From Haloferax marisrubri (GTDB lineage Archaea > Halobacteriota > Halobacteria > Halobacteriales > Haloferacaceae), in NCBI RefSeq assembly GCF_001469875.2, contig NZ_LOPW02000018.1:226634-264693 (forward strand): a DNA stretch of 38,060 bases. The letters are read 5' to 3'. Below, piece by piece: positions 14,848-23,273 of the stretch. Every line of letters starts with the position of its first letter. Position 1 is the first letter of the stretch. A program made the position numbers and the translations under genes. The notes beneath the pieces are model-generated. The model ran no database searches. It was not told where the DNA came from and saw only the letters and a list, made by a program, of their open reading frames with translations.

Positions 14848-14916
14848 ATGAAAATCCTCGATTCAAAATCATCCCAACACGCAGCGAGAGGGTTACTCCC
14901 CGGTGAGAAAGCGTGA
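14848..14916 (+). CDS. 22-residue leader peptide overlapping the integrase start
   Basis: ATG AAA ATC at 14848 opens a 22-codon frame (MKILDSKSSQHAARGLLPGE, then KA) that ends in the TGA of a GTGA overlap with the integrase start. Both starts are preceded by the same GGTGAG ribosome-site-like sequence (about 14840-14845 and 14902-14907). Such overlap is usual for translational coupling, so the peptide could set the level of integrase synthesis. It is too short for homology arguments and may have no function of its own. Confidence 0.35.
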   Translation: MKILDSKSSQHAARGLLPGEKA

Positions 14917-16223
14917 ATCAGCAGCCTGACTCCCAGGGTTTAGAGGTCGAAGAGGAGGCTTCAGAGAACAAGACGAGAGAGCGTCGCTACAAGTGGTCCC
15001 AGATGAGCCTCGACGAACTCGTCGACGTCTACTGGCAAGACATCGCACCGGAGCGATATCGCGATGGATTCGACGAGGACCGCGACGTTCCAACCTATGG
15101 GTGGCTCACCGAACATGGATACAGTGGTATCGCGTACGCGCTGCGCGAGCATCATGATTTGACGCCCAAGCAGTTCTTCCTCGACGTTGTCGGTCTCGAA
15201 GATGAGGAATCTGTGGGGTGGGAGTGGAACGTCGATGACGAAGATACTGTCAATGCTCTAGAAGTGTACCTCAATTCGATACAAACTCGTGGTGGGCGAG
15301 CAGAGAGTACCGTCGAGACCCACCGGACGAGGTTGGCCAAGTGGGTTCGGACCTATCGAGAACTGCACGGGACTGATGCATTGCTCGAACCACTGTCTGA
15401 ACTTGACCAGCAGCCGATGGAGATAGAGCGTTGCCTCGCTGTTCTCGACGTGTTCGACGAGGAGTTATCGACTGATCGGTCGAAACTCGAGTATCTGCAC
15501 GTCGCCAGAGCGTGGTACGCCTTCGTAAAGCGCCGGAAGTACGCGAAGTACAACCCACTCTCGGAGGCCGGCGAGGAGTTTGGCTGGGAAGCCAGCGAAC
15601 CAGACCCACAGGCGTTGTCCGCGTCGCAGGTTCACCGCATCTACGGAGAGGTAGATTCTCCTGAAGCGGAGTTGCTCTTAGTTGCGCTTGCTGGGTGGGG
15701 GTTGCGACCTTCAGAGGTCGCTGCGTTGCACGTTGACCAAGTGGTTTTGGATGCCGAAGATCCTCATCTGTCGTTCGGTGATGGAGAGCGGAAGAACGGT
15801 CCTGGAGAGGTGACGCTGTTGTACGGCGTGGATGTCGTCGCTGACCGGATTGATGCGCTATCTGACCGTGGGACGTGGAACGGGTATCTGTTCCCGTCTC
15901 GGTCATCGTCGACGGGCCACGTGTCAGTTAGTACGATACGTCGTCGGTTTAAGCAGCTTGCTGACACTGCTGGCGTGGTTGTCGATGGGGATACGCCGAC
16001 GCCCAAGATGGGGCGGCGGTTCTGGTACTCGGCGTATCAGGAGGCTGTTGGTGAGGTTCTAGAGGGGCTTGAGGGAGTTGCTGAAGACCAGGGGAGTTCG
16101 TCGACAGAGGTTGTGCTTCGGAATTACTTGTCAAGAGAGCAAGAACGGAAGGCGCGGCGAAGAAGGATGTATGAGAAGTTGAACGCAGCGTTCAGAACGA
16201 CTTTGAATGGATCTGAACCATAG
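14913..16223 (+). CDS. Tyrosine recombinase (integrase)
   Basis: This is a 436-residue site-specific recombinase. A long N-terminal part (1-105) of unknown role precedes a SAM-like core-binding domain at about residues 110-220 (LEVYLNSIQTRGGRAESTVE and following). The catalytic domain has Arg265 in GWGLRPSEVAAL, a Lys in ERKNGPGEV, KxxR (Lys365-Arg368) in PKMGRRFWYSAY in place of the usual HxxR, and Tyr405 in VLRNYLSRE as nucleophile. The KxxR variant is known among archaeal virus integrases. A GTG start with GGTGAG five bases upstream was chosen. No tRNA gene or attachment-site duplication was found nearby. It probably drives integration or excision, or dimer resolution, of the plasmid-like segment to its right. 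Confidence 0.85.
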   Translation: MNQQPDSQGLEVEEEASENKTRERRYKWSQMSLDELVDVYWQDIAPERYRDGFDEDRDVPTYGWLTEHGYSGIAYALREHHDLTPKQFFLDVVGLEDEESVGWEWNVDDEDTVNALEVYLNSIQTRGGRAESTVETHRTRLAKWVRTYRELHGTDALLEPLSELDQQPMEIERCLAVLDVFDEELSTDRSKLEYLHVARAWYAFVKRRKYAKYNPLSEAGEEFGWEASEPDPQALSASQVHRIYGEVDSPEAELLLVALAGWGLRPSEVAALHVDQVVLDAEDPHLSFGDGERKNGPGEVTLLYGVDVVADRIDALSDRGTWNGYLFPSRSSSTGHVSVSTIRRRFKQLADTAGVVVDGDTPTPKMGRRFWYSAYQEAVGEVLEGLEGVAEDQGSSSTEVVLRNYLSREQERKARRRRMYEKLNAAFRTTLNGSEP

Positions 16224-16415: not shown

Positions 16416-17240
16416 CTACGAGTTGCCCATGGACTGTCTTTCAACCCAGTTGAGAGACCTTCGATATCCTCCATTTGTAAACCAGTCTCCATTTTTTGAC
16501 AGAACGTATTCGGTATTTTGGGTTCCTATTAATTTAACCCCGGTAACCTTCTTTGAGTAAGAATTCATGCTTGCTTCTGTATCAGTAACCTCGAGAAACC
16601 GTTTCCGTTTATTAAATCGAATTCGATCACCGGTCTCTACCGTACTCAATATATCTGCAATTTCTCTCGAGGACATCTCTTGTCTCTCACCATCGGCTAC
16701 AGAGTCTGGCTGAGAAATAGCATTTGAATACTTTTCACTAAAATCTATTTTACAGTGTTTTTGCCATAGGCCCCGATTGTCGTAGACATATGCGACCTTC
16801 ACAGGTAAAAAGTCAAATTTTGGAATCCATATCTTTTGGTGCTTTGTGAATTTTTCGTTAGGTCCTTTTACTTCTACAAATTGGTAGTCACCCGGTTCAG
16901 ATTTGTCGCAAATGAACAAATCTGGGGTACCCGGCTCACTAACAGCACTAAGCGGATCAGTACAGTCAAGGCTGTCCCGTATTTCGTTTTCTAGAGAATC
17001 TATAGTCTGATTTGGGATGTCCGATTTCAGAATAGCTCTTCTTACTCTGTCGTCCTGTTTGTGATATAGATTTTCTACGTGTTTATCGAGCACATTCTCA
17101 TAGTATCCATGTGCAATATTTTCATTCATCCCAAGATTGTTTGAAGAATATATTGGGCGTTCATCACTTTGTATATCAATCTCAGACTTAGTACCCCTTC
17201 TGACGTCATATTCAATCAAGAAATAGTTTCTAAGTGACAT
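16416..17240 (-). CDS. VRR-NUC-like nuclease protein
   Basis: This 274-residue protein is encoded in notably AT-rich DNA. Its centre carries a restriction-like/VRR-NUC active-site pattern: GTPDLFICD (about 104-112), then QFVEVKGPNEKFTKHQKIWI (about 120-139). This gives the D...ExK...Q arrangement of metal-dependent nucleases. HGYYENVLDKHVENLYHK upstream provides the preceding helix. The C-terminal about 90 residues are a separate unidentified beta-rich part. The start at 17240 was chosen because a TATA-like box at 17272-17278 would place transcription start near 17249, downstream of the alternative ATG at 17264. It lies 200 nt downstream of the HFX_2341-type regulator on the same strand, next to a CBASS-like operon, so a defence role is a fair inference. 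Confidence 0.65.
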   Translation of the reverse strand: MSLRNYFLIEYDVRRGTKSEIDIQSDERPIYSSNNLGMNENIAHGYYENVLDKHVENLYHKQDDRVRRAILKSDIPNQTIDSLENEIRDSLDCTDPLSAVSEPGTPDLFICDKSEPGDYQFVEVKGPNEKFTKHQKIWIPKFDFLPVKVAYVYDNRGLWQKHCKIDFSEKYSNAISQPDSVADGERQEMSSREIADILSTVETGDRIRFNKRKRFLEVTDTEASMNSYSKKVTGVKLIGTQNTEYVLSKNGDWFTNGGYRRSLNWVERQSMGNS

Positions 17241-17271
17241 TCTGTTCTTATCGAATGTTACCACTCACGGG

Positions 17272-17278
17272 TTTAAAA
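17272..17278 (-). promoter_or_regulatory. TATA-like box of the VRR-NUC gene
   Basis: TTTTAAA on the minus strand, centred about 35 nt before the ATG at 17240. It gives this gene its own promoter, separate from the upstream regulator gene. Confidence 0.4.
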
Positions 17279-17442
17279 CTCACCCCAGCCTATTTGCTCG
17301 ACTCACAAATTGACTCAGTTGTTTGACCCAGTACCAACAAGTCAGTAAAAACCCTACCGCGCATTCCGAAGTTCCCAGTACCCTCCAAATTAAGATAACT
17401 GACTATTCACTCCGAAAGACAGATTTCCCAGTCTAAACACAG

Positions 17443-18315
17443 TTAGTGGGTTTGGACCCAGAGTTCGCCCATTGTGGAGAGACCTGGTTTGTACCGGTTC
17501 TTTTCTTGTTCTCGCTTGACGAAGCCTTTCTTCTCTAACTGTTTGACGTTGTATTGGACTTTGCTCTTGAATGAGTCCATCTCAAGGTCTTCGTCTAAAT
17601 CTTCTGCGAGTTCTCTTGCGAGTTCAGACGTGGATTCCATTTCTCCTTCCTTCGCAAGGAATTCGAGTATCTGGATCTCAAAGTCGTGAAGTTCGGCGAA
17701 TGGGACCACGGGAAATTCGACGTGAAGCCCGCCGTTCATTCTGGAGGCGCCTTTTGTGGTCCCACTGCTTTCGATTTCGTCTAACAGTCCGGAGATTGCA
17801 TCGTTACGTTCTCGGAATTCTTGTCCATCTTGTTGTTCGAGGAATTCGCTTTCTTTCTTGAGTTCCTCGATCATTTCGGTGATGAGGTAGCGTTCGGGCG
17901 AGACGTAGTATGTGTGTACTCGGTCTCGGAGTTCAGGGTTTTCGACGACTAAGGCGTTGGCGGCGGTGGCAAAAGCAAATGCAACGGTTCGAGGCATCGA
18001 GGAGATGTTGACCCATACCTCGTTTTTCTGGTCCACTTCTGATTTTATCATCTTGTAGGCCCTCGGGTAGATGTCCTCGAATTTGAAGATATCCTCAACC
18101 TCGTGGATTTTGACTTCTTTACCGAGGATTGTTCCGAAGGCCTGATCGAGTTTATCGACCATTCGCTGTGCTAGTCCTTGGACTTCCTCGCTGTTTTCCT
18201 TCCTTGCAGAGTGGAGGAGGTAGATTTTGTCTGCGTCTAGTTTACCCTGGGTTATTGGTTGAAACAGTCTTTCGTAGTCGAAGCCGACTGGGATTATGTG
18301 TATTTTCTCGATCAT
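17443..18315 (-). CDS. HFX_2341-family regulator: CARF-like sensor with winged helix
   Basis: This is a 290-residue protein. The N-terminal half begins EKIHIIPVGFDYERLFQPI, which is the opening of the HFX_2341 N-terminal domain. It continues as a Rossmann-like fold with a conserved glycine-poor loop, VWVNISSMPRTVAFAFATAA. That loop has the position and look of the ligand loop in CARF-type domains. A helical linker (about 150-205) leads to a winged helix-turn-helix (LHDFEIQILEFLAKEG to VKQLEKKGFVKRE). Such proteins are predicted to sense a cyclic or linear oligonucleotide and to control transcription. It is divergent from the CD-NTase operon with about 170 nt between starts, so it is placed to respond to that cyclase's product (inference). 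The second Met (18315) was preferred because family members start there. Confidence 0.7.
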   Translation of the reverse strand: MIEKIHIIPVGFDYERLFQPITQGKLDADKIYLLHSARKENSEEVQGLAQRMVDKLDQAFGTILGKEVKIHEVEDIFKFEDIYPRAYKMIKSEVDQKNEVWVNISSMPRTVAFAFATAANALVVENPELRDRVHTYYVSPERYLITEMIEELKKESEFLEQQDGQEFRERNDAISGLLDEIESSGTTKGASRMNGGLHVEFPVVPFAELHDFEIQILEFLAKEGEMESTSELARELAEDLDEDLEMDSFKSKVQYNVKQLEKKGFVKREQEKNRYKPGLSTMGELWVQTH

Positions 18316-18424
18316 TATTTGAATCACTTAATACCGATTTCTGACTAGTACTTCACAAATTTTCTTGTCTGAAATACTAATCGAGTAAACTTGTTTGTAC
18401 GTGCTTGACTTTGGGCGACAAAGC

Positions 18425-18435
18425 TTTTATTATAT
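18425..18435 (+). promoter_or_regulatory. TATA-like box of the CBASS-like operon
   Basis: TTTTATTATAT lies about 57 nt before the ATG at 18488, so transcription would begin near 18457 with a leader of about 30 nt containing CAGGTGG. This excludes the upstream in-frame ATG-less extension from 18395. The box is in the 170-nt divergent region shared with the HFX_2341-type regulator, where an operator would be expected. Confidence 0.5.
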
Positions 18436-18487
18436 TCGGTATCCTTCGAACAATTGTACTACCCCAATTTCAGGTGGACCAAATCCA

Positions 18488-19324
18488 ATGACAATCCCCA
18501 AGAGAAAACAACTGGGATTCAACCCCGCAAAAATCGACGACACGCCTAGAGGCACAGTTATTCTGGCAGAGCCACAGTCGGCCCACCAACGGTTTCTTCA
18601 GGGTATCCCACAGGAAACCAAGGTACTTCTCAGAATCAGCGATGCGAACACTCTGCTAAACCGTAGTGAAACAGCCAGTACATACTACGGGGATGAGACC
18701 ACCGTAATAACCACAACCACGGTCCAAGACAAGTACCTCTCAGAACTCACGTGGGAACGAGAGCTCGAACTAATCAAAGAATTCGAGCCAGACTATCATA
18801 TCCCGTGTGACTACCCAGTCTACAAGCACGACAAGGAAGACCAGCGACGTGGCCACGTACGGAACTGTCTCGAAGGAACTCTTTGGGTTGGTCAACACCT
18901 CTCAGACGTTAAAACCCGGATTATCCCCCTAGTGAAGGGCGAGACCCCCTCAGAACGTGGTCTCTGCTACAGAGTATTCGATGAGATTAACGCCGAATAT
19001 GTGGCTGTCTACGGCACCCAATACTTCCTCTCCGGGAAAGGGTTCAGCCCACTTCTGGAAACGCTGCAGGCAATCGCCTCCGAAGCATCCCACCTGAAAA
19101 TCATGCTCATCGGACTCCAATCACCACGACTACTCGAACAGGCACCACCACAGGTCGTTGCCGCTGCCGGACAACGGTGGATCAGACAAGTCCAACTCCG
19201 AGACGTACCATTGTCGAATTCTCACAGATTATTCGGCGAGATGGACTGTGCAATCACAGATTCGTTGTCCGAAGGCCAAGCACCACTTAGTATGTGGACC
19301 GGTTCTGCGGAGGTGACTGCATAA
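18488..19324 (+). CDS. TGT-like TIM-barrel protein, candidate Cap10 of type IV CBASS
   Basis: This 278-residue protein resembles the barrel of tRNA-guanine transglycosylases in its layout: an N-terminal strand-helix part (GTVILAEPQSAHQRFLQGI), a central EFEPDYHIPCDYPVYKHD, a TRIIPLVKGETPSERGLCYR strand, EYVAVYGTQYFLSGKGFSPL, then LKIMLIGLQSPRLLEQAPP and AAAGQRWIRQ. The DSGGFQ and zinc-cysteine motifs of true TGT enzymes are absent, so it is probably not a housekeeping tRNA enzyme. Published CBASS classification includes rare type IV operons with a TGT-like accessory protein (Cap10) and a QueC-like one (Cap9). Its position 3 nt before a CD-NTase gene fits Cap10. No QueC-like gene is visible. 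The family call rests on pattern recognition alone. Confidence 0.55.
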   Translation: MTIPKRKQLGFNPAKIDDTPRGTVILAEPQSAHQRFLQGIPQETKVLLRISDANTLLNRSETASTYYGDETTVITTTTVQDKYLSELTWERELELIKEFEPDYHIPCDYPVYKHDKEDQRRGHVRNCLEGTLWVGQHLSDVKTRIIPLVKGETPSERGLCYRVFDEINAEYVAVYGTQYFLSGKGFSPLLETLQAIASEASHLKIMLIGLQSPRLLEQAPPQVVAAAGQRWIRQVQLRDVPLSNSHRLFGEMDCAITDSLSEGQAPLSMWTGSAEVTA

Positions 19325-19327
19325 ACC

Positions 19328-20377
19328 ATGGGTGGCGGATACTCAACCTCACTGGGAAATTACTCCCAAAGTGGACGCAGACCATCCGATGCCGGTGATG
19401 CCGGTGACGTGGTTCAAGAAACACTTCAGAGCGAAGACGAAGTCGAAGAAAGCTACGAGAACCACGTCGGGGATACAAAAATCACCGATCGGCAAGGCGA
19501 GACAATCTCCGACCGCCGCGACGTCCTAGTAAGTATCCTCGAAGAAGACATGGGAATTGAAGACAGCCGTTTAATCGGCTCATTCACACGCGGAACGATG
19601 ACGGGACCGCTGAAACAAGATTCCGATGCCGACGTTATGGTGGTTCTCGATGCAGACAAACATCGGGACTGGATCGAGCAAGAGAACGGTCCTACCAACG
19701 CACTTCGAGCGATTAAAAGACGGATCGAAAACGATCCACGGTTCTCTCAGACGGAGGTGAGGGTGGACCAGAACGTGGTACAAGTGAAGTATCACGATTC
19801 GACAATCGAGATTGCACCTGCATTCAGGTACAGTGAGGTTCCGCACGCGGACCACCCCAGAGACGGATTCAACCTGTTCAACGATGCAAGTGATGGATAC
19901 GCGATTCCAGACACTCACGGTCAACAATCGTGGCAGGGAACGAACCCCAGAGAGTACAAGCAAATGTTCGAGGCACGTGATCAGGCGCACAACGGCCGTG
20001 TCTCCGGTCTAACTCGGGCAATGAAGACCTGGGCGGACCGGAACAATGTCCCCGTCAGGTCGTACCACATGGAGACTATGGTCTACAACTACTTCGAGGA
20101 GAAGGCACGGCGTGGAGAGCCTGTACCGAGCTCGTACAACGAGTTGACACGGGAGTTTATGCGAACGCTTCCGAATCGTGTTCACGGTAAGGCGAAGGAG
20201 CCGGTGTACAACGAATCTGTAGACAAAGGAATGGGCCAGGAAGACCGGAATGCTGCTGCAAAGAAGGCGAAGAAGGCGAGCGAAAAGCTGGAAGAAGCGA
20301 AACGGCTCAAAGACCAAGGTAAAACCGAGGAGGCGATGGAGAAATTAAAAGAAGTTCACGGAAAAGACTTCAACTGA
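19328..20377 (+). CDS. CD-NTase (CBASS cyclic-oligonucleotide synthase)
   Basis: This 349-residue nucleotidyltransferase of the SMODS/OAS-like fold should make a cyclic nucleotide signal on phage or virus infection. The core motif is LIGSFTRGT (Gly84-Ser85) followed by KQDSDADVMVVLD with metal-binding Asp100 and Asp102. The third acidic residue is Glu161 in STIEIAPAFRY. The helical second lobe follows (GLTRAMKTWADRNNVPVRSY, then MVYNYFEEKA). The tail (about 295-349) is a charged coiled-coil-like stretch rich in AKKAKKASEKLEEAKRLK repeats. The N-terminus is MGGGYSTSLG, so removal of Met would expose glycine, a residue of note because type IV CBASS has been linked to N-terminal modification of a protein. 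Second gene of a three-gene operon. Confidence 0.82.
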   Translation: MGGGYSTSLGNYSQSGRRPSDAGDAGDVVQETLQSEDEVEESYENHVGDTKITDRQGETISDRRDVLVSILEEDMGIEDSRLIGSFTRGTMTGPLKQDSDADVMVVLDADKHRDWIEQENGPTNALRAIKRRIENDPRFSQTEVRVDQNVVQVKYHDSTIEIAPAFRYSEVPHADHPRDGFNLFNDASDGYAIPDTHGQQSWQGTNPREYKQMFEARDQAHNGRVSGLTRAMKTWADRNNVPVRSYHMETMVYNYFEEKARRGEPVPSSYNELTREFMRTLPNRVHGKAKEPVYNESVDKGMGQEDRNAAAKKAKKASEKLEEAKRLKDQGKTEEAMEKLKEVHGKDFN

Positions 20378-20400: not shown

Positions 20401-21051
20401 ATGACTGAAGACGACTTTGACTATGAAGCCCATGAACGTTTGAGAGGAAGGGTTGCTAATGAAGCGGACAGCGTTCTTTGGACGTTCAAAGCATACTACA
20501 AAGGCGCAGACTGGTATACGAAACGAGATCGGTGGATGGATTTGGGTGTTTTCGGAATCGCGGGCCTGCTAACAATCGCTCTGATATGGGGTTCCGCACC
20601 TCAACATCTCTTGGTCAGTCTGGCAATCATTACTGCAGTAATGTCTGGGTATCGTCGGATGGCAGACCCTGGTGATAGAGCAGACGAGTGCTACCGAGCG
20701 GCTCATGCATACCAACGCCTGTTTGACGACTTCCGGGATTTCATCCAGCTCGAACTAGCCAACAAGGAAACAGGGTTAGACGAGATGTATGAACGCTACA
20801 GAGAGCTCGCAGAGCGACGAAGAAACCTGAACGAAGACATGCCGGAAGTCACCAGCAAATGGTACGAGAACCTAGATGACTCCATCTACGACCAGGTTGG
20901 AACCACAGAGAAAGACAAAGAGCGGCTAACAGGGGAGGCCAAGCTGAAAGACAATGTGTCAAATCACGATCTGAGCGTTGAGGAAGTGAAGGACCGGCTG
21001 ACCGGCGATGCCGCCCTCAATGATGAATCAGAGGACGAAAAGGAAGAATGA
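20401..21051 (+). CDS. SLATT-domain 2TM effector
   Basis: This 216-residue protein has a short cytosolic N-terminus with a helix ending in WYTKRDRW. Two membrane segments follow, at about 46-64 (MDLGVFGIAGLLTIALIWG) and 68-85 (QHLLVSLAIITAVMSGY). After them is a long helical part (DECYRAAHAYQRLFDDFRDF and on). This is the layout of SLATT domains, predicted pore-forming effectors that accompany SMODS cyclases, and they are thought to collapse the membrane potential when the second messenger binds. The C-terminus has an internal repeat, KERLTGEAKLKDN (about 175-187) and KDRLTGDAALNDE (about 199-211). It is 23 nt downstream of the CD-NTase gene, and that link is the strongest support for the call. 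Confidence 0.75.
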   Translation: MTEDDFDYEAHERLRGRVANEADSVLWTFKAYYKGADWYTKRDRWMDLGVFGIAGLLTIALIWGSAPQHLLVSLAIITAVMSGYRRMADPGDRADECYRAAHAYQRLFDDFRDFIQLELANKETGLDEMYERYRELAERRRNLNEDMPEVTSKWYENLDDSIYDQVGTTEKDKERLTGEAKLKDNVSNHDLSVEEVKDRLTGDAALNDESEDEKEE

Positions 21052-22236: not shown

Positions 22237-22782
22237 ATGACTGAGGATACGCCGTCTCCGCCGGACATGAATCTGGCCGGTGAGTGGGACAAAGCAGTCG
22301 AGAGCCGGACGGTCAAAGATCGTGTGTATGAAGCAGTAACGACGCTCACGTCGCCGACCACTGTTGCAGATGTCGCAGAACGTGCTGACTGTACAAAAGA
22401 AGGCGCACGTCCTCATCTCGAGTGGTTCGTTGACGTCGGAGTGCTCGAAAAAGTCGCCGACAATCCTGCGCTCTTCGTTCGCAATGAGGCCTACTTTGAG
22501 TTCCGTCGTATCACGGAACTGACCCGGGAGCTCAATACACCAGAAGCGGCTGAGGAAGCAATCGACGAGTACCGAGCCCGAGAACAGGGGCTCTCGAGTT
22601 ACTTTGAGGAATCCTCGCCTGAGGCAGTTGTCCTTTCCGAGACGACGTACGACGATCTCGATGAGGCGTACGATAGACTGAGTGAATGGCGAACTGTCAC
22701 TCGCCGCCTTCGTGAACTCCGAGAAGCCAAATTCCGTCTCGAATCAAATGTCAGTGGAAGTCCTGCCTCCTCGTTTCCCTAA
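22237..22782 (+). CDS. Winged-helix regulator (ArsR-like/antitoxin-like)
   Basis: This 181-residue protein has a helix-turn-helix at about residues 28-80 (TVKDRVYEAVTTLTSPTTVA, AERADCTKEGARPHLEWFVD) with a wing VLEKVADNPALFVRN. The rest is helical and acidic (ITELTRELNTPEAAEEAIDE and following) and ends in a Ser/Pro tail. It is of a type widespread in haloarchaea next to small toxin-like proteins. The TumE-like gene begins 5 nt after its stop. That order, with the regulator first, fits an autoregulated toxin-antitoxin pair. A direct repeat TTATCGTA occurs at 22139-22146 and 22171-22178 upstream and might be its operator. Confidence 0.6.
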   Translation: MTEDTPSPPDMNLAGEWDKAVESRTVKDRVYEAVTTLTSPTTVADVAERADCTKEGARPHLEWFVDVGVLEKVADNPALFVRNEAYFEFRRITELTRELNTPEAAEEAIDEYRAREQGLSSYFEESSPEAVVLSETTYDDLDEAYDRLSEWRTVTRRLRELREAKFRLESNVSGSPASSFP

Positions 22783-22787
22783 CCTCG

Positions 22788-23273
22788 ATGGGACGCACAG
22801 ATGACCTCAACGAAGAACGGATGCGAATTCTCGGTGGTCGACTCGCAGATCTCTCGGTAACCGAGACCGTCCAGTACTTCCCGTCTGGAAAGGAAGACCG
22901 TGTTGTTGCCACTCTTCAGTCGAGTTACTATCCCGACGTCGTGGATACTGCTACTCTCGAAATCCGTCTTCGACTGAATGGTGAGTTCAATATCCAGTAT
23001 TTTGAGGAATGGGCTGGTGAGCGCTGGTCGTGTCGATGGGACCCCCACCCGAATACACACAACACACGCGACCACTACCACGTACCACCCCAGCCGCGAG
23101 AAGAGAGTGCGGTCGATGCAGTCTACCCAGAAGATCCGAATGACGTGCTTCGGATGGTTCTTGAGACTATAGAGAAACGAGTCAACGATATCTGGGCGAC
23201 AACAGATCCGATTTTCCCGTCAGAATACGAGTTCAAACAGGAGTACGGTGCAGACTACCTCGTGGACACGTAG
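22788..23273 (+). CDS. TumE-like putative toxin (copy 2)
   Basis: This is a 161-residue protein. Residues about 1-60 form alternating strands and helices (ILGGRLADLSVTETVQYFPS, VVATLQSSYYPDVVDTATLE). The conserved centre is GEFNIQYFEEWAGERWSCRW, then DPHPNTHNTRDHYHVPP, followed by an acidic helical end DPNDVLRMVLETIEKR. The centre matches the 85-residue protein at 21413. TumE/DUF6516 proteins are reported as toxins paired with an HTH antitoxin, and this gene follows an HTH gene by 5 nt. Assignment to that family rests on the RW/DPHP/H motif and on context. Confidence 0.5.
   Translation: MGRTDDLNEERMRILGGRLADLSVTETVQYFPSGKEDRVVATLQSSYYPDVVDTATLEIRLRLNGEFNIQYFEEWAGERWSCRWDPHPNTHNTRDHYHVPPQPREESAVDAVYPEDPNDVLRMVLETIEKRVNDIWATTDPIFPSEYEFKQEYGADYLVDT

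Follow-up and report, generated by a model that had tools for sequence, protein, structure and literature searches.

Most of what is known about CARF sensors concerns their role as receptors for the messengers of type III CRISPR systems. Among them, the transcription regulator Csa3 binds cA4 (PMC8844856, PMC8699464), and replacing its Gly96 by Ala abolishes this binding (PMC8844856). In haloarchaea, over-expression of the housekeeping protein HFX_2341 lowers cas transcripts, and its deletion alters many genes (PMC11434293). In CBASS, the regulator CapW is encoded upstream of and opposite to the defense genes, which it represses until its ligand domain is triggered; it is thought to release on ligand binding (PMC9122588). 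In type IV CBASS, the QueC-like protein Cap9 attaches a 7-deazaguanine to the N-terminal glycine of the CD-NTase, and the TGT-fold protein Cap10 binds the modified CD-NTase end (PMC11996544, PMC13279940).

We analyzed a 38,060-nucleotide stretch of Haloferax marisrubri DNA (the window), in which a gene of the HFX_2341 family faces an operon resembling that of type IV CBASS. The regulator gene occupies positions 17443-18315 of the minus strand; its open reading frame extends to 18327 if a GTG start is used, but the ATG at 18315 is the likelier start. The two divergent ATG codons are separated by 172 nt (18316-18487), in agreement with the gap of about 170 nt first described. The facing operon had been presented as a CD-NTase operon. 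A CD-NTase is indeed present, but as the second gene. The first one (18488-19324, plus strand) encodes a TGT-fold, Cap10-like protein (PADLOC TGT model PDLC00912, 7e-132). It is followed by the CBASS CD-NTase (19328-20377, plus strand; NF041117 CBASS_cyclase_b, 278 bits for a cut-off of 200; PDLC00805, 533 bits), which has an MGGG N-terminus and a low-complexity tail, and then by a two-transmembrane SLATT_4 effector (20401-21051, plus strand; NF033632, 59.9 bits for a cut-off of 55; PF18186, 33 bits for a cut-off of 27).

The TGT-like protein has no Pfam match. Its structural model (pTM 0.81) resembles archaeosine TGT (1iq8, Z 19.7); a solved Cap10 was absent among the matches listed for this model in the fold comparison, and sequence profiles gave none either. 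Because a TGT/Cap10-like gene is followed by CD-NTase and SLATT genes, the window operon resembles a type IV-like CBASS without a local Cap9. QueC genes (PF06508) are found in the same genome on contig C3 (at 124113) and, as a partial match, on contig C4 (at 296945), with none on the window contig C18. Full-length QueC was not found in three assemblies, about 99% complete, that carry TGT-CD-NTase modules (G011, G198 and G219). Nearly all CD-NTase partners have a possible MG start.

The G+C content at 16-19 kb is 44-46%, which is less than in most of the window. A gene for a tyrosine integrase is located nearby (14913-16223, plus strand; PF00589, 4e-5 and XerA_Arch, 5.7e-7, neither of which reaches its curated cut-off). 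Together, these features suggest a mobile island. No tRNA that could provide its attachment site was found within the window. At 22237-23273, a DUF7342 HTH gene (PF24033, 2.9e-20) precedes a gene with a weak TumE-like toxin match (PF20126, 0.0054, below the cut-off); judging from these matches, the two genes are a possible toxin-antitoxin pair.

The original prediction described the regulator as an HFX_2341-type protein joining a CARF sensor to a winged helix, and both sequence and fold bear this out. The protein matches Pfam HFX_2341_N (PF19810, E 1.8e-26, 93.4 bits for a cut-off of 30) and, over its full length, the PADLOC model CARF3 (PDLC01846, 360 bits). Its score against the NCBI equivalog NF051475 (HFX_2341), 273 bits, is under the cut-off of 500, which identifies it as a member of the family and not as the housekeeping ortholog. 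Since searches with CARF or TGT profiles against the sequences of solved structures gave nothing meaningful, we turned to fold comparison. The AlphaFold2 model (m2c59bdb8ab99; 26 sequences, mean pLDDT 77, pTM 0.64) contains a Rossmann CARF domain and a wHTH. The CARF part superimposes on Can2 (8bao, Z 14.7), Csm6 (Z 13.8) and Card1 (Z 12.9), while the whole chain matches Csa3 (6wxq, Z 12.8) over residues 4-291, with 199 residues and a large rmsd that comes from domain orientation. Overall, the Z values of 12-15 against Can2, Card1, Csm6 and Csa3 confirm the Rossmann CARF fold. The wHTH matches haloarchaeal RosR (Z 13.3).

The distribution of the regulator was studied in 391 Halobacteria genomes, 56 of which carry the TGT-like family according to the PADLOC model. 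In these 56 genomes, the CARF profile detects a copy, or pieces of one, at about 280-330 bits almost everywhere and, separately, a second group at 397-487 bits. This strong group (at least 397 bits) has 23 members across the 391 genomes, and all 23 are adjoined by a divergent TGT-like gene, several of these TGT genes having been missed by the PADLOC model. In Salinigranum rubrum, the CARF-TGT pair spans the origin of a circular plasmid (NZ_CP026312). Two additional CARF copies, at 348-353 bits, are located elsewhere. In a named collection, which overlaps the 391 genomes in species and is not fully independent of them, a divergent TGT gene stands beside all 18 members of this lineage, versus none of 8 housekeeping copies. 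Because TGT-adjacent members were used to build the counting profile, bit scores favor that lineage, and a tree of 48 proteins served as a safeguard. The housekeeping copies form a single clade (SH-aLRT 100, branch length 1.6) that includes none of the TGT-adjacent copies. The lineage of the window regulator is separate from that of the housekeeping HFX_2341, which is present once per genome.

Near-identical copies of the regulator occur in different genera, some of them plasmid-borne, which indicates recent transfer. No CARF or TGT relative was found in the viral contigs searched. On the Halomarina sp. BND7 plasmid NZ_CP100458 (locus L179), the CARF gene is divergent from a TGT-like gene annotated as hypothetical; two annotated nucleotidyltransferases follow the latter, and an integrase gene lies nearby.

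Sixty neighborhoods were classified by iterated profiles, and 24 of them are TGT-CD-NTase-SLATT loci (two are near-identical and in one genome). A divergent CARF gene accompanies 9 of the 24, one of them across the ends of circular plasmid NZ_CP026312. At 9 loci, the divergent regulator is of the TrmB type and is accompanied by a Panacea/PadR-like protein; 4 loci have an upstream ATPase/c17 pair, and 2 have no regulator of these kinds. Hence, the CARF protein is an optional component of TGT-CD-NTase loci. The TrmB-type cassette (L036:8589-9786 and similar loci) is divergent and combines an HTH protein (PF01978, 8.7e-13) with the PadR/Panacea-like protein; the cassette at L033:10229-12044, found also at L034, L035 and L050, is upstream on the same strand and encodes an NTPase-HTH protein and an unknown protein of about 245 residues.

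The partner of the TGT gene is not constant either. In the 23 CARF modules, the genes after TGT are CD-NTase and SLATT (9), c16 (10), DsbA-like c4 (3) or unclassified (1), which leaves 14 modules without a CD-NTase. A SMODS search of the corresponding 14 genomes gave no match in 12 and a match below cut-off in G218; G356 has a CD-NTase at another locus. In total, 13 of the 23 regulator genomes have no SMODS CD-NTase above cut-off. The Cas10 palm domain (PF22335) was found in none of the 23, a search made with one model that a divergent Cas10 could escape. On the CARF tree, the partner type (CD-NTase versus c16/c4) switches once, which indicates that regulator and module stayed together; the CD-NTase-adjacent copies lie outside the c16/c4-associated clade. 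The regulator evolves with its module and is used where no known cyclic-oligonucleotide maker is found. The haloarchaeal co-occurrence first suggested as a check takes another form for the regulator, whose lineage stands beside TGT modules in 23 of 23 cases and beside CD-NTase/SLATT genes in 9; it does not extend to the VRR-NUC gene discussed below.

The partners encoded after TGT belong to unrelated families, but most of them start with MG and end in a long tail rich in Gly, Ser and Asp. These are CD-NTases, a ThsB-type TIR protein (PF08937, 1.4e-17), DsbA-like c4, long c16 and a family-less protein of 1015 residues (examples at L063:9361-9873, L071:10057-11175, L067:8564-9289, L060:6084-9128 and L054:9149-9418). 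Short c16 proteins start with MPRKGG or similar, not with MG.

By sequence and a simple pattern scan, the 172-nt divergent region is a putative shared promoter, with a TATA-like CTTTTATTATAT on the plus strand about 55 nt upstream of the TGT start codon. No palindromic operator with 5-base half-sites was common to more than 3 of 22 intergenic regions. A stem-loop lies at the start of the window TGT gene (18493-18519, plus strand; 6 bp stem and A-rich loop of 15 nt), and many loci have one that overlaps the TGT start codon or lies just ahead of it (for example L091, L167, L081 and L033), with a 5-8 bp stem, a 14-17 nt A-rich loop and a consensus near CnnnGAAACACAnC. Inverted repeats of this size are present at 11 of 22 CARF loci (3.9 in shuffles) and at 19 of 30 loci without a recognized regulator (5.4 in shuffles); at the TGT starts of loci with a TrmB-type regulator, they are not above chance as judged from shuffles. 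Changes on both sides of the stem were seen in 5 of 6 pairs, a covariation that is partly circular as the hairpins were picked as inverted repeats. Rfam gave nothing at the stem-loop.

In the CARF pocket, PVGFD (motif 1) and N-I-S-S-M-P-R (motif 2) are invariant across the 27 tree sequences that are TGT-adjacent, and the housekeeping copies have nearly the same motifs. Motif 2 is the form taken here by the general CARF motif (D/N)-x-(S/T)-x3-(R/K) of the β4-α4 loop. The position of Csa3 Gly96 corresponds to Met107 and is Met throughout the family, according to a motif alignment and not a superposition. The methionine at this position, together with the motifs common with the housekeeping protein, suggests that the ligand is not cA4 bound in the manner of Csa3 and that it may be the one used by the housekeeping protein. 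A ring-nuclease role was put aside because motif 1, PVGFD, does not contain the GxS/T motif described in PMC8844856.

Our preferred reading, which we consider probable, is that the CARF-wHTH protein is a dedicated ligand-gated regulator, likely a repressor, of the adjoining TGT operon, and that it responds to a host nucleotide. Its domain architecture, its distinct lineage and its constant divergent place beside TGT-like genes, whatever the partner, are established here. By analogy with HFX_2341 and CapW, we infer that the protein regulates the operon by repression and is switched by a ligand. Most likely, a dimer would bind the shared divergent promoter. This would keep the TGT operon, and perhaps also the regulator's own gene, at a low level. 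A nucleotide-type ligand filling the CARF pocket would alter DNA binding. Such a ligand could be made by the host under stress or infection, and would probably be that of the housekeeping HFX_2341 rather than the product of the neighboring CD-NTase.

The original prediction proposed a circuit of the latter kind, in which the cyclic oligonucleotide made by the neighboring CD-NTase is the ligand of the CARF protein, whose binding would raise or lower CBASS expression. The CARF fold is akin to that of cA4/cA6 receptors and a CD-NTase adjoins 9 of the 23 copies; moreover, the position of these copies outside the c16/c4 clade may reflect a special ligand in that subset. However, 14 of the 23 modules have no CD-NTase, with 13 such genomes having no SMODS match over cut-off, the motif residues are close to those of the housekeeping paralog, and Met107 replaces the glycine of Csa3. 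These three points make feedback on the CD-NTase product unlikely as a general rule, although, in weakened form, it may still hold within the CD-NTase subset. Thus, the conservation of the regulator with the modules and of its ligand motifs stands, but the CD-NTase product does not as the general ligand.

The regulator could also have arisen by duplication of a global regulator, have its main targets in trans (cas or transport genes, for instance) and merely hitch-hike beside the module. The many genes affected by deletion of the housekeeping HFX_2341 (PMC11434293) fit with this idea, which we nevertheless hold to be quite unlikely: the same divergent orientation in 23 of 23 cases is not expected from hitch-hiking, and the partner changed only once on the tree. 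A response to type III CRISPR cyclic oligoadenylate, as for Csa3, appears very improbable. The match with Csa3, a cA4-binding protein (PMC8844856, PMC8699464), covers 199 residues at Z 12.8 with a large rmsd, but Met replaces Gly96 in the motif alignment and the 23 regulator genomes gave no match to the one Cas10 palm model used.

On the other side of the regulator, the VRR-NUC nuclease-like gene (16416-17264, minus strand; PF08774, E 5.7e-7, 30 bits for a cut-off of 23.8) begins 178 nt (GTG) or 202 nt (ATG) after the CARF stop codon, close to the 200 nt first described and on the same strand. Its PD...ExK...QK residues are intact in GTPDLF, FVEVKGPNE and HQK. A single other homolog was found in the 391 genomes, with 34% identity (L128; G322:C1:1041296-1042099); it is on a different contig from the CBASS, the CARF-TGT module of that genome being on another replicon. 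Plasmid records gave no homolog, and the only one of the 24 TGT-CD-NTase loci with the gene is the window itself. On the strength of these searches, we rejected it as a component of the system, and we judge the gene to be genuine but a chance neighbor. That it encodes a second, induced effector, an idea consistent with its place downstream of the CARF gene on the same strand and with its intact nuclease motif, is hardly credible given its presence at 1 of 24 loci, the location of its lone homolog elsewhere in its genome, its absence from plasmid records and the gap of 178-202 nt.

Beyond the window, we tentatively envisage a broader scheme, possible but less than even in our estimate. Haloarchaeal immune modules would combine a TGT-fold reader with a glycine-started, disordered-tail partner (CD-NTase, TIR/ThsB-like, DsbA-like or c16), and the CARF-wHTH lineage would be the dedicated switch of many of them, sensing a common cellular nucleotide and not a module product. 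In that case, deazaguanylation of proteins would not be confined to CBASS and would take place with no Cap9 encoded locally. Glycine-started partners other than CD-NTases are possible targets of such a modification. The TGT/Cap10-linked CARF lineage, with no Cas10 and often no CD-NTase found, offers a testable case for CARF switches that respond to other alarms, and leads one to ask what keeps the type IV-like CBASS of archaea silent.

Compared with known systems, the window operon shares with type IV CBASS a TGT-fold Cap10-like gene and a CD-NTase above the NF041117 cut-off. The MGG-type start of this CD-NTase (MGGGYSTS) would make it a candidate for the modification, as predicted from this likeness. 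Unlike in type IV CBASS, the locus has no Cap9/QueC-like gene. The regulator recalls CapW in its layout: both have a winged helix and a ligand domain, and the gene of each lies upstream of the CBASS genes on the opposite strand (PMC9122588). The ligand domain is CARF in one and WYL in the other, and these are unrelated. Moreover, CapW is reported with CBASS types I-III (PMC9122588), whereas the window operon is type IV-like and the repression by the CARF protein is a probable feature drawn from the analogy. Csa3 from Saccharolobus has the same combination of CARF and MarR-like wHTH domains, with a structural match over the whole chain, but it is CRISPR-associated, while the window family has Met in place of Gly96 and Cas10 was not detected in the 23 genomes. 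HFX_2341, or Crr (Haloferax mediterranei, DUF6293), acts as a housekeeping global regulator, has one copy per genome and, unlike the window copy, has no such module alongside; both are nevertheless haloarchaeal proteins made of CARF and winged-helix domains (PMC11434293) with near-identical motifs, PVGFD and N-x-S-S-M-P-R.
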